Assembly: GCA_964019415.1 (NCBI GenBank)
Contig: OZ025868.1
Coordinates: 7,434,046 to 7,498,045 of the forward strand
Reading direction: 5' to 3'
DNA length: 64,000 nucleotides
DNA from: Ianthella basta
Lineage: Eukaryota; Porifera; Demospongiae; Verongiida; Ianthellidae
Made by a program: the position numbers and the translations under genes. Under the pieces are notes generated by a model, which worked only from the letters and a program-made list of their open reading frames with translations, did not search any database and was not told the DNA's origin. This document shows, piece by piece, positions 3,089 through 60,555 of this stretch. Position 1 is the first letter of the stretch. Every line of letters starts with the position of its first letter.

Positions 3089-5017
3089 ATGTCTGTTGTG
3101 TTAGCCTACTACACTACAGTAGTGACTATCCTGCTGGTGCTCCCCAGAGGAAGTGTTACACAGAATGGGAATCCAAGCTCAGTACAGGCTCCAACTGTAG
3201 AGGTACTGGATAATAGGAGCACTTATTGCCTGGGAGAAACAGCTCACATCAGGTGCAACATCTCTGGGTCAGAGAAAGACTCTAATTTTGTCTATGACTG
3301 GATAATCAACACTACCATTTATAACCCAGACACCATTGCAAGTCATAAACCTGGCCATACTGTAAGCAGTTCTGATCGTTTTGTATTACAAGCACATCCA
3401 ACTACAGCTTACACTGCAAGCTACAGCTGCAGCCAGAGACTTGGGTCATGGACAATACAAAGTAGAGCTAAACTGATAACATTTACAAGTAAGTTAGTAT
3501 AATAAATCACGAACTCAGTTGAACTGGAAGACTCGTTGTTGAATTGATATACACATATTAATCACAGAAACAAATTATCCAGCTCTACTTGTTGCTTGTG
3601 CCAGTGCATCAATTAATTCAATTACTGTACTGATGAAGGAGACAAACAAATGCAGCTCAACAAAAGTGGAAGTGACAACTGGCGGCACCAACTGCTTAAC
3701 AACTGGGCTTAATCTCTACCTGTGTGCTGGTCTGCAGCCAAAGACAAATTACACCATATCAGCCGTTGCCACCACCAGGAGTGCCAATGGATCAGTACTG
3801 AAGACAACACTGGGCACAATTGTGTGCACTACTGGTGAGTGTGAGTGTCTACAGGAGGCCAAAATATAATTATATAATTATCTGTGCTAGCAAAACATCC
3901 CTATAAGTTAGCCATATAACGGAGATGAGATTCAACCTCAATGTATACATGCATAATTATACATAGTATGCAGTAGCTATACAAATCATAACCAATGCAT
4001 GCAGCATGGTATTTGCAGTCGTTGTACCTGACAATGACAAAACAATAACATTTACCTCTGGCTATAGGTATTGTTAGATGCATCTCCATGAAAAGCATGT
4101 GCACCTTCACACCTTAATTGTGAGCTTCACAAGGAGGATATGATGTGGATGATTAGGATATGATTTATATAATTGTGTAGTTGTTTTGTTGTATAGTTGT
4201 ATAGGTATAGGCTGCCGTGAAAGCTATTGGGAATACTAAGTTGATTAAGTGCAGCTTAATCCCTTCTTTGGATGACCGAGCATACCAAGAAACACTTGTC
4301 AATTCAATGCAATGTTTTGTATGCCTGACATAGCCAGTGACATACTGTAATATGATAAGTTAAAATGCACTTCAATTAGCATGGCTTTTTATATATATTT
4401 AATCATGCAGGTTTGGAGCAACCAACTTCAAGTGCATCACAACACACACTAATTGCTAGTAAGGAATCCAATTAATTACGCATTAATAATTATGTTGGTG
4501 CATTTTAACTTGCTATAACAATGTGCATGTCATCATGGTCAATTTGCCTGTTTCTGTTCTTTGGCTGCATACCTACAAAACACAGTAGGGGCGTGTTCAG
4601 GATCAGTTGTCATAGTATCTGTTCTTCTTGTTGCTACGGTGACCATTGTTCGATGCAAGAGAATGCAAGTCCGTCCAAATGTACCTGATAAAGGTATAAC
4701 ATAATATTAGTGCAATTCAGTGATCTGAGAAATTACACATTGCAAAGCATGCAACATGTACATGGTCATAGCCAATCCTTAAGTGGGTGGCATGCAATTC
4801 AGCAATAAGTATTAATAAATGTTGTCATTGTTACTTATAGATGCTGTACATGTTCCATTTTTATATAGAGTCAGCTGTTGATGCAGAAGATGACAGTCGG
4901 AGCAGAACTGAAGCAGCAGTCGAGCCACACCACCTCCAGCCCAACCCTTCCTACTGCTCCATTGAAATGATGAAGAAGACACAGCACATTGCTTACGAGA
5001 ATGTCATCATGCAATAA
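3089..5017 (+). CDS. R1: Ig-FN3 transmembrane receptor, type A TM, complete tail alpha
   Basis: Five exons: 3089-3488, 3568-3834, 4411-4458, 4586-4693, 4869-5017. All junctions are GT-AG and phase 1, giving 323 residues. Residues 1-~22 are a signal peptide. Residues ~28-132 form an Ig-like domain with the B-strand Cys (HIRCN), the C-strand Trp (YDWII) and an F-strand YSC. Residues ~135-222 form an FN3-like domain (GLQPKTNYTISAV is its F-strand region) with extra cysteines. A Ser/Thr-rich stalk (LEQPTSSASQHT) precedes a TM segment at ~244-260 ending in RCKR. The tail holds NPSYCSI (Tyr303; NPxY and YxxI) and IAYENV (Tyr317; fits the ITIM consensus and a pYxN Grb2-type site). The best guess is a cell-surface recognition receptor signalling through phosphotyrosine. 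Ligand and function are unknown. R1 is the least altered type A copy. Confidence 0.82.
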
Positions 5018-6077
5018 GGTGACTAATATTGTCTGAATATGCTGTAAAAATATGTTATGTCCACTCTGTAATCACACCTAGAAAGGTGAATGTTGACAGT
5101 TGCAAAATTCCCAATATTTTTGACACTCACCAACACCCACACTCACACCCACACCCATACCTCCCCACATACGCATCACCAACAACAACACACAAAGACA
5201 CAGAGATAAGCTATGTAATGTAGATTCACATGCAACTGATCATAATTGTATGCAAACATCGGCTTCATTGAAATAAATAATTATTTTGCTGTTTGGTGCA
5301 CTTCTCCGTGCATGTCTCTTCACCTCTTTCATAAACACATTTTAAATGACAGCTGTGCTGACAAATCTCAATAGTTGGCAAGTTAACCTTGGCATGCAGT
5401 ATTTGTGGCACCGCTCACAGTAATAAGTATCACATGTTTGAGGTAGAAGTACAAAGCAGTGAGAATTCATGTTCTGCAGCAAATGGAACTGTCTAAATTA
5501 CAGTGTACTACTTTTATGAACAACTCATGACATTCCATACTATATTATTATAATATCATGCATTGCACCTGCTCCAAGAGTTTTCATAAGGATGTACGAC
5601 TCACTCTGATTCTGTAGGTAAGAAGCCTGGAGTGTGCACAGTCGTGCATTTGTATGAGTTAAGAATTGTTCGTCAACATTCCCCTAATTACCACATATCC
5701 TGCACTTTGTAGGGCTAGTGCAAGTGACTCACAACTTTCCCATCCTTCAACCCAATTACTACTAAGGCATCAACATTGCATGATTGTGTGCCAGGGGTCT
5801 GGGCAACAGCATTAAAGTGCAATATTAGGGTGATGTAGGGCTTACTTCCCATAACTGACACACTCATGATCACACCTGAGGAAACAATGACGCTAACAGT
5901 TCCTTACATGGAGAAATAATTCAGACAGTAATAAGGGGGTTTCAGCAACAGATACCTACTGAGGGCAAAAGTACATTAACAGACATGTGTTCAAACAGAA
6001 ATATCCATCTTTGTGGAAAAGGCTGTTGCTTGAACATAGCAGCACACAGACAGAAACAGTATACATCAGTTGTCACG
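5018..6077. other. R1 3' flank, segmentally duplicated
   Basis: No gene. The R1 3' flank from the last intron onward is duplicated, with indels, at 46149-48000 behind a tail-only R fragment. A possible polyadenylation signal AATAAA lies near 5271. A CACACC-rich patch at 5125-5205 is simple sequence. The short frame there is not credible as a protein. Confidence 0.55.
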
Positions 6078-6176
6078 CACACACACACACACACACACAC
6101 ACACACACACACACACACACACACACACACACACACACACACACACACACACACACACACACACACACACACACAC
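6078..6176. repeat. (AC)n microsatellite
   Basis: About 49 uninterrupted AC units. The paralogous site at ~47550-47565 retains only a handful of units, so the tract expanded or contracted after the segmental duplication. Long cysteine/valine or threonine/histidine frames across it are artefacts. Confidence 0.97.
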
Positions 6177-6367
6177 TAGAGCTAGCAAGCAGTGCTCACT
6201 CATGTGTATACTCTTTGGACTATCCTTCAATTATAGAGCAGTCACATGATATTACTATAATGAATATACCTATATGGTACATCCTTATAGCCTGGACTGA
6301 AGCATACGCATGGTATTATGGGATGCGCAGGATGCCTGACACACCACATGCATAACTCGCACTTATA

Positions 6368-6471
6368 TAGTCTTGCGTAGCCAAGACCACTTCTCCTCTC
6401 CGTTCTTATATTCTGACGTGATCTTGTGCAATAGCAGAACTGGAGGAAAGGGTCCTGGCTACGTGAGACTA
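6368..6471. mobile_element. 104-bp MITE with TAGTCTTG/GAGACTA ends
   Basis: The ends are TAGTCTTGCGTAGCC and GGCTACGTGAGACTA, nearly perfect inverted repeats. An almost identical element sits at 47749-47852. Its terminal sequence continues like the longer element at 32588-33430, so it looks like a deletion derivative of that family. The related sequence at ~12995-13030 lacks the insert and looks like the empty site. Confidence 0.7.
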
Positions 6472-58658: not shown

Positions 58659-58740
58659 AGTACAACACAATTGTGTTGTACTTAGGTCATGTACTTTCAT
58701 GAAGTACACTGGCTGCCACTGAATGTGCTGCCAGAGTAGG

Positions 58741-58746
58741 TATAAA
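58741..58746 (+). promoter_or_regulatory. TATA box of R8
   Basis: TATAAACACC, 44 bp before the former ATG at 58785. Confidence 0.5.
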
Positions 58747-58784
58747 CACCTAAAGCAGGTGTAATAGCTTCCACAGCACATAAC

Positions 58785-60555
58785 ATGTCTTCTGTAATTG
58801 CCCACTACACTGCATGCAGCTGTGACCCTCTTCCTTGTGTGCCCTAGAGCAAGTGTTTCGACCAGGAATCCCAACTCCGTATTGGCTCCAACTGTAGAGC
58901 TACTGGACAACAGTAGCACTTATTGCCTTGGAGAAACAGCTCACATCAGGTGCGATATTACTGGGTCAGGGAATGACTCTGGTGTACTCTATGACTGGAT
59001 AATCGACAATACCAATTATGACCCAACTACCACTGCACAGCGTAAACTTGACCACACTGTAAGCAGCTCAGATTGTTTTGCATTACAAGAACATCCAACT
59101 ATACAGCCTACACTGCAAACTACAGCTAGTGCTGCAAAGTTAGAACAGTGCCAAAGACAGTCCAAAGCAGAGCTAAACTGATAACATTTGTAGGTGAGTA
59201 TAGTAAGTCATACATAATAATATAAAGAAGATCCATTAATTAATTGATACTCATTATATTTGCAGAGGCAAATTACAGCTCTACCTGGTACTTGTGCCAG
59301 TAGAAAAAGTAATTCAATTACTGTACTGATGAAGGAGCTCGAGATGAACAAGTGTGGACGTGACAACCGGCAGCACCAACTGCTTAGCAGCTGGGCTTAA
59401 TCTCTACCTGTGTGCTGGTCTGCAGCCAAAGACAACTTGCACCATATCAGCTGTTGCCACCACCAGGAGTGCCAATGGATCAGTACTGAAGACAATACTG
59501 GGCACAACTGTGTGCACTACTGGTGAGTGTGAGTGCATAATACATATGCATGCATGCTTTAATTAGTTATACAAACTTATCTCTCAATCATCCGTAAATT
59601 GATGCTTTGAATGGGGCAGTGAATATTCATGGTAATGGTTAGACATTACACTAAGTAGTCAATAATGCTGTGAGCATCAAGTATAACTATATATTATATG
59701 GTATCCTGTTTATTCCCAACATGATTAAATATAGGCAATGTTGGGCAATAGCAGCTGTTAGCATGCTTGCTGTTATGGAATTCATCATGATTGCATTTCA
59801 GACGCTCTATCTATTAGTGAGTTTTAAGATCATCTACAAACTCAAGCAGAAACTGCGCACTAAAGAGGCAACAGGTACATTTTTCAGGGTACTGTAAACT
59901 CGACAGTATAGCACTGTGCATGCACAGAATTACTTCCTTTTCTCTATTTTGTAAATTTGCAGTGGCGTCACAAATATTAATGTTACTACCAGGTGAGCGC
60001 TGCAGTGGCAAGAAGTTTAAAGTATACATTAACAATGTGATTGATGTTATGTATAGATGTATTCCTGTGAATGATGGTGCATAATTATTATTAAATTTGG
60101 TATTATAGTCAGTTTATTAATAATAATGCTTCTGCATAAATTTCATGCATGTTTAAGCTGCAAGTGAATCCCTTTAACTGTACACAGAGACAGTGCTAAA
60201 GCTGTGATTAACATTCCTTTGACTAAGGAAGAGGAAGTCACTGACACCAGCAAGAAAGTTAGTCCTATAGAACAAGACATAACAGCTGTATAGCTTGTGT
60301 ATAGTATCATTCCATATACACTGAATTTTTTCATCACAGTGGATTGCTCAGAATGTTGATGCTAAATTTATTGCAATAATTTTCCAATACAGTCATGTGT
60401 GGCACCATGTTGCATAAGCATTGTATATCATTCTACTCCTTGCACTATCACAGGAGCGTGAACCCACTATTGGAGTGGCTTATGCGGAGCTAGATTTTGC
60501 TGCAGGGAGGGACCTACCCATCAAGCCACAACCAGCATTTGAGAGAGTGCAGTAG
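58785..60555 (+). pseudogene. R8: decayed R copy with tail beta exons
   Basis: Exon 1 (58785-59192) has a net 4-base insertion after the signal-peptide start and a second indel before the F-strand Cys, which is lost. Exon 2 (59266-59522) has an in-frame TAG early and a deletion. The stalk acceptor is missing. The TM exon (~59736-59871) is diverged, ending YKLKQKLRTKEAT. Tail exons remain readable: 59963-59992 (one base short), 60188-60257 (DSAKAVINIPLTKEEEV, DTSKK) and 60454-60555 (GVAYAELDF). A TAG then replaces the Tyr region of the second ITIM (ERVQ-stop). It serves as an independent witness for the R7 tail exon structure. Confidence 0.75.

Follow-up and report, generated by a model that had tools for sequence, protein, structure and literature searches.

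Relic exons in a sponge cluster of Ig-FN3 receptor genes record the capture of a tail cassette from a sister family

A stretch of 64,000 nucleotides from the genome of the sponge Ianthella basta (C1:7434046-7498045, OZ025868.1, in a 209-Mb assembly of 96 contigs; called the window below) carries eight copies, R1 to R8, of a gene family predicted to encode membrane receptors with an immunoglobulin (Ig) and an FN3 domain. Relic Ig2 and FN3b exons, which belong to a sister family, are found in introns of R3 and R5; therefore, the capture of the tail cassette is real in these genes. The relic exons reveal how an Ig receptor cluster swaps its signalling end. We regard it as reasonably probable that the family represents inhibitory recognition receptors of Ig-FN3 type in a birth-and-death cluster.

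An earlier note on this DNA had proposed eight same-strand Ig-FN3 copies. The search of the window with one reference copy found eight Ig exons, all on the plus strand and each followed by an FN3 exon, which bears out this count with R8 as a pseudogene. The models, with stalk, transmembrane (TM) and tail exons, are as follows (window positions; TM-A, TM-B, tail 1 and tail 2 with its exons t2z, t2a and t2b are cassette types):

R1, 3089..5018, plus strand: Ig 3089-3488, FN3 3568-3834, stalk A 4411-4458, TM-A 4586-4693, tail 1 4869-5018; YCSI and IAYENV; 323 amino acids (aa)
R2, 9285..10779, plus strand: Ig 9285-9678, FN3 9746-10012, TM-B 10278-10418, tail 1 10627-10779; YCSI and IAYENV; 316 aa if spliced, TM donor GG
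R3, 16474..19193, plus strand: Ig 16474-16870, FN3 16950-17216, stalk A 18627-18674, TM-A 18802-18909, tail 1 19086-19193; TAG after SIEMM, YCSI only; 308 aa
R4, 22596..24097, plus strand: Ig 22596-22992, FN3 23072-23338, TM-B 23597-23737, tail 1 23985-24097; TAG after SIEMM, YCSI only; 305 aa
R5, 28021..30777, plus strand: Ig 28021-28420, FN3 28503-28769, stalk A 30182-30229, TM-A 30358-30465, tail 1 30631-30777; YCSI and IAYENV; 322 aa
R6, 40341..41830, plus strand: Ig 40341-40743, FN3 40823-41089, TM-B 41355-41495, t2z 41582-41612, t2a from 41786 with a stop soon after; exon with the inhibitory motifs lost; about 295 aa
R7, 53815..57301, plus strand: Ig 53815-54217, FN3 54300-54566, TM-B 56441-56581, t2z 56668-56698, t2a 56878-56959, t2b 57179-57301; VAYAEL and VKYADV; 348 aa
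R8 pseudogene, 58785..60570, plus strand: Ig from 58785, FN3 from 59266, TM-B from 59735, tail 2 to 60570; VAYAEL still legible in t2b

The modelled spliced frames are open in R1 to R7 (7 of the 8 window copies), and GT..AG borders were found at all their modelled junctions save the TM donor of R2; R1, R3, R4, R5 and R7 are intact as modelled. Frameshifts and stops interrupt the Ig, FN3 and TM exons of R8. All eight copies show a TATA-like element 42-50 bp upstream of the ATG, recognized by pattern in five and by eye in R2, R5 and R8. The proposed phase 1 junctions held throughout R1 to R7, namely between Ig and FN3, between FN3 and stalk or TM, and between TM and tail; the internal junctions of tail 2 are of phase 2 and phase 0. 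Two of the 12 modelled copies of this Ig type (Ig-A), both situated outside the window, are on the minus strand. Among the outside copies, the frame of L1 is broken at tail 1 and that of X2 at the FN3 acceptor.

Three combinations of cassettes occur: stalk, TM-A and tail 1 in R1, R3 and R5, TM-B with tail 1 in R2 and R4, and TM-B with tail 2 in R6, R7 and R8. The two TM-tail sets show no similarity to each other (BLASTP E 18), as expected from the earlier description of two unrelated cassettes and tails. The history of these combinations is recorded in the following features:

18114-18193, plus strand: end of an Ig2 exon in the FN3-stalk intron of R3 (76.5% over 81 columns, E 4e-10)
18359-18382, plus strand: FN3b piece in the same R3 intron (24/24 nt, E 2e-7)
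29676-29744, plus strand: end of an Ig2 exon in the FN3-stalk intron of R5 (E 5e-10)
29817-29967, plus strand: FN3b exon in the same R5 intron (E 3e-12)
23821..23844, plus strand: fusion joint of R4, with an intron of a TM-B gene on the left and an intron of a tail 1 gene on the right

Past the relics, both R3 and R5 stay similar to an intact Ig2 gene through stalk, TM-A and tail 1. The corresponding intron of R1 is without a relic and about 850 bp shorter. The open Ig2 genes are built in the order signal peptide, Ig2, FN3b, stalk, TM-A and tail 1, the tail carrying YCSI and IAYENV; hence, those Ig-A receptors that have TM-A and tail 1 are equipped with the sister family's cassette. R4 represents another type of fusion. 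Up to 23821 it is 92.5% identical to L2 (C1:7427156), a gene with Ig-A, TM-B and tail 2, and this identity ends just upstream of the exon next after TM-B in that gene; identity to R5 begins at 23844, 14 bp past the TM-A donor of R5. The joint of R2 is at a like place (about 10462-10483). As a control, no Ig2 relic was found in the introns of R4, the two matches of R4 to the Ig2 gene being its tail and a separate Ig2 exon downstream. The relic exons prove the exchange of cassettes for R3 and R5, but the exchangeable cassettes of the earlier note were not upheld in the sense of free exchange, since the sequences of R1 to R5 would be explained by at least two old fusions, each later duplicated. 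Further breakage is shown by two orphans:

25294..25695, plus strand: orphan Ig2 exon of the sister family, an open frame without in-frame start, with no FN3b or stalk seen on its 3' side
46115..46483, plus strand: orphan cassette consisting of the 3' end of TM-A and tail 1, without ectodomain

The window is one slice of a block of about 320 kb (C1 7.21-7.54 Mb), in which the exon types are concentrated. In genome-wide searches, whose counts are lower bounds, 15 of 15 Ig-A matches, 18 of 18 FN3-A matches (three of them FN3b at 38-39% identity), 11 of 11 tail 2b matches and 17 of 17 further FN3-like exon matches were situated inside the block. The same is true for 26 of 28 Ig2 matches and 21 of 22 tail 1 matches; the two other Ig2 pieces and the remaining tail 1 adjoin each other on C13. 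An open frame across every exon is found in only 5 of the 17 Ig2 models; two of these five (7320456 and 7339635) have GG as stalk acceptor, so that their stalk (a phase 1-1 exon) may be left out on splicing. A third receptor family was considered for the copies of tail 2b near 7306914, 7372609 and 7402610 and rejected, because these copies contain in-frame stops and look like fossils.

The ectodomain exons have diverged more than the earlier wording of near-identical copies implied, because among the 21 pairs of R1 to R7 the protein identity is 64-90% for Ig and 74-94% for FN3. The Ig core residues C55, W70, Y111 and C113 are invariant in 23 aligned rows. The Pfam model Ig_3 was matched below cut-off in 13 of the 23 rows for Ig-A, with a best value of 0.0023, and in 8 of the 12 for Ig2, with a best value of 6.6e-4, and the Ig-A and Ig2 profiles match each other with a probability of 97.4%. 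The structure predicted for the FN3 exon consists of the seven strands of an FN3 fold (predicted local distance difference test, pLDDT, 71.5), and most of the 50 PDB matches listed for it are FN3 domains or monobodies. By sequence the fn3 model of Pfam matched weakly (E 0.1 in R5), without any match in R3 or R6. No Sushi match was obtained in the exons scanned with Pfam.

The Ig exons show coding constraint and give no sign of positive selection. The ratio of nonsynonymous to synonymous substitutions (dN/dS) was 0.51 for Ig-A (bootstrap 0.37-0.70; 11 exons) and 0.42 for Ig2 (0.31-0.55; 13 exons), so that the rapid evolution supposed for the locus was not borne out for the Ig exons. The highest dN along the Ig exon (0.28) was found just past the YSC motif, where dS was 0.32, and no sign of positive selection was detected in this exon. 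The value of 0.55 for FN3b is unsafe, because the genes at 7398781 and 7399716 share one exon, which was counted twice. These estimates include 11 of 12 Ig-A, 11 of 12 FN3-A, 7 of 8 TM-B, 13 of 17 Ig2 and 7 of 16 FN3b rows, the others having stops or a broken length.

Searches among 5.8 billion proteins agree with the earlier remark that no named family was known with this domain and tail combination, since none of the proteins matched by the spliced R7, the Ig-A profile or the Ig2 profile bears a name. R7 obtained one match, the Ig-A profile at least 25 including the window's own (scored were the 7996 candidates with most shared words), and the Ig2 profile 62. Copies identical to those of this genome were found on a contig of 1.28 Mb; therefore, the arrangement does not result from faulty scaffolding. 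Relatives at 50-63% identity occur on other contigs, those at 50-55% on contigs of 0.96, 2.49 and 5.81 Mb, and the latter two sizes also appear among contigs with Ig2-type exons. If contigs of equal size are taken as the same, the Ig-A and Ig2 types seem to be linked in another species as well. In a tree of 12 foreign Ig-A proteins, 4 on short contigs, 11 own copies and 3 Ig2 exons, the own Ig-A copies form a clade (95/91), with the bootstrap still unsettled. Two proteins from short contigs, P0003 and P0004, resemble mosaics that combine R3 with R4 or R6, and either alleles or assembly errors could account for them.

The motif of an immunoreceptor tyrosine-based inhibitory motif (ITIM) is [I/V/L/S]xYxx[I/L/V]. 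The tail of R7 contains two canonical ITIMs, VAYAEL and VKYADV, with their tyrosines 24 residues apart, and similar pairs are present outside the window in L2 (VVYAEL and VKYADV) and X1 (VAYAEL and VQYTDV). IAYENV fits the pattern in the tails of R1, R2 and R5. No match was found in R3, R4 and R6. Hence, the tyrosine-motif tails described earlier were recovered as YCSI/IAYENV tails and as tails with two ITIMs, but R3 and R4 end before the second motif of tail 1 and R6 has no tyrosine tail at all. The idea of paired or inhibitory receptors was likewise upheld in part: like ectodomains are joined to unlike TM and tail exons with ITIM-type motifs, but the activating half was not found, as no Lys or Arg is present in the hydrophobic TM core of R1 to R7. 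TM-B carries a Glu, and in L1 and X1 a Lys is situated close to the inner end of this segment. Two adjacent sets of SH2, SH2 and phosphatase exons are situated on one strand at C16:693793-713366, a layout which, judged from exon matches, we take to be that of SHP-type ITIM effectors. Tyrosine-phosphatase exons are also very numerous in two long arrays (C6 about 5.95-7.09 Mb and C12 about 5.43-6.14 Mb) among the best 150 of 689 genome candidates.

Some other features of the block and the genome were observed. A second FN3-like/Ig-like exon family, mostly broken, is interleaved with the R genes on the minus strand (6827, 7611, 12172, 13338, 19773, 26337, 44326, 48201 and 49573); the plus-strand locus L035 (about 6346-9232) was grouped with it, and a better-kept relative with TM and long tail is situated at C1:7534391-7537277. 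The segments C1:7231477-7239394 and 7385785-7393702 gave exon matches of equal score in opposite orientation, which points either to a recent duplication of several kb in inverted orientation or to an assembly artefact. Long TG repeats at 8987-9109, 15773-16293, 27679-27845 and 58521-58592 precede the Ig exons of R2, R3, R5 and R8, respectively, at a distance of at most a few hundred bases. Between R5 and R6 the stretch 32600-37000 is GC-richer (46-50%), with DEAD-helicase-like pieces on the minus strand at 35922-36287 (E 8.3e-6) and 32991-33233 (E 0.036), and perhaps represents remains of a mobile element. Elsewhere, at C6:3129864-3135966, three adjacent peptidase C1 homologues have an active-site region without the usual CGSCWAF. 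Among 45 exon matches to peptidase C1 in the genome, eight loci were read, and no silicatein was recognized in these eight. GH6, a marker of tunicates, was without match in the genome, as was the control of this search. The small number of homeobox exon matches (at least 32), chromosome-size contigs up to C23 and short introns are sponge-like.

How might these receptors function? They would be type I membrane proteins with signal peptide, one Ig, one FN3, a TM segment and a short tail, the Ig domain being the probable binder of an extracellular ligand. Phosphorylation of tail tyrosines in ITIM-type motifs would recruit a tandem-SH2 phosphatase and damp the cellular response; a phosphorylation-dependent recruitment of SHP/SHIP is predicted. 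Tandem duplication and decay would drive the turnover of the family in the block, and because phase 1 introns flank the ectodomain and TM exons, crossovers within introns would yield working chimeras; in this way the Ig-A/FN3-A ectodomain was joined at least twice ahead of a cassette with another tail. We infer expression, surface location, ITIM signalling, a ligand and a role in recognition from these genes. The open frames, the constraint on Ig, the FN3 model, the Ig core, the ITIMs, the SH2-SH2-phosphatase loci, the relics and joints, the TATA-like elements and the relatives speak for inhibitory receptors. Several observations weigh against them. The predicted fold of the Ig exon is poor (pLDDT 40.7), none of the Ig or FN3 exons scanned surpassed a Pfam cut-off, two Ig-A members match PKD_2 at 8.6e-4, and the best PDB match of the FN3 fold, an FN3 domain, reached E 0.019 (probability 1.00) with none below 0.001. 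Moreover, dN/dS was 0.96 for FN3-A and 0.98 for TM-B with wide limits, R6, R8 and perhaps R2 are without a usable tail, and such tyrosine motifs also arise by chance and as sorting signals.

A rival view is that the genes encode adhesion or housekeeping receptors with endocytic YxxO sorting signals instead of ITIMs. YxxI/V/L fits the rule for sorting motifs and YCSI of tail 1 lacks the ITIM residue at position -2, but the stricter ITIM pattern is fitted by both motifs of R7, L2 and X1, and cluster turnover with tail capture would be unusual for housekeeping adhesion genes; we consider this explanation unlikely. A mostly decaying cluster with little function appears very improbable. The broken R8, the lost tail of R6, the lost donor of R2, both orphans and the small share of usable Ig2 models would fit such decay; however, five window copies are intact and the upper bounds of dN/dS (0.70 for Ig-A and 0.55 for Ig2) stay below 1. 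As a special case of inhibitory recognition receptors, the block might be an allorecognition complex, in which polymorphic Ig-FN3 receptors, perhaps together with ligands, decide on fusion or rejection upon contact, as do Alr and fester/FcoR. This is possible, though on the doubtful side. It would agree with the concentration of nearly all exon matches in one block, the lineage-specific clade of own copies, the mosaics P0003 and P0004 if these are alleles, and ITIM-type tails as described for FcoR (in the available part of PMC12065747). Yet the mosaics may be assembly errors, the Ig exons show dN/dS below 1, and recognition of microbes would leave the same traces.

Inhibitory recognition receptors thus remain our favoured reading. 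A still bolder extension, which we consider rather unlikely, is a sponge histocompatibility-like complex of linked Ig-FN3 families, the ectodomain exons of which are recombined onto inhibitory tails. If true, specificity and signal would each change through genetic events of their own, and the recognition of cells by way of ITIMs would date back to sponges. The available parts of PMC12065747, PMC11067881, PMC11999971, PMC12018476 and PMC5450542 do not describe this Ig-FN3 family, and searches of the open-access literature yielded no comparable family of sponge receptors for self-recognition or inhibition. The locus is bounded and has intact genes and clear exon modules, and the genome contains SHP-like loci as well; the question of recognition is therefore testable.

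Among vertebrate and invertebrate systems, KIR, LILR, SIRP and CEACAM form gene clusters in which related ectodomains are placed on different TM and tail cassettes, with ITIM tails. The family described here is similar in these three respects, but differs by the Ig-FN3 layout, the missing partner with basic, activating TM among R1 to R7, and the absence of a named sequence match. According to the accessible parts of the original reports, the Alr genes of Hydractinia are clustered single-pass genes of the immunoglobulin superfamily (IgSF) in one region with many pseudogenes and at least 41 loci (PMC11067881, PMC11999971), and allorecognition candidate genes of this animal bear ITAM/ITIM motifs (PMC12065747). 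Here, too, a putative IgSF cluster with many pseudogenes and ITIM-type motifs occupies a single region; however, Alr ectodomains combine V-set and I-set Ig domains in place of one Ig and one FN3, and polymorphism deciding on fusion is a feature of Alr, whereas our locus is known from the genes of one assembly. In Botryllus, fester and FcoR belong to a multigene cluster whose tails contain ITIMs or the core YxxI/L/V, and uncle fester has a 3' exon block in common with fester next to an unrelated 5' half (both from the available part of PMC12065747), which is much like the sharing of cassettes in the window. Those proteins combine Ig with Sushi domains, and they have three TM segments in fester and two additional C2 Ig domains in FcoR; these features are absent here. 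The receptor tyrosine kinase of Geodia is a sponge membrane protein with Ig domains (excerpt of PMC12018476), but the window models have no kinase domain and only short tails, with 295-348 aa overall. Collectively, the locus is of the kind of clustered IgSF receptors with ITIM-type tails, and what distinguishes it is the Ig-FN3 architecture and the documented capture of a tail cassette.

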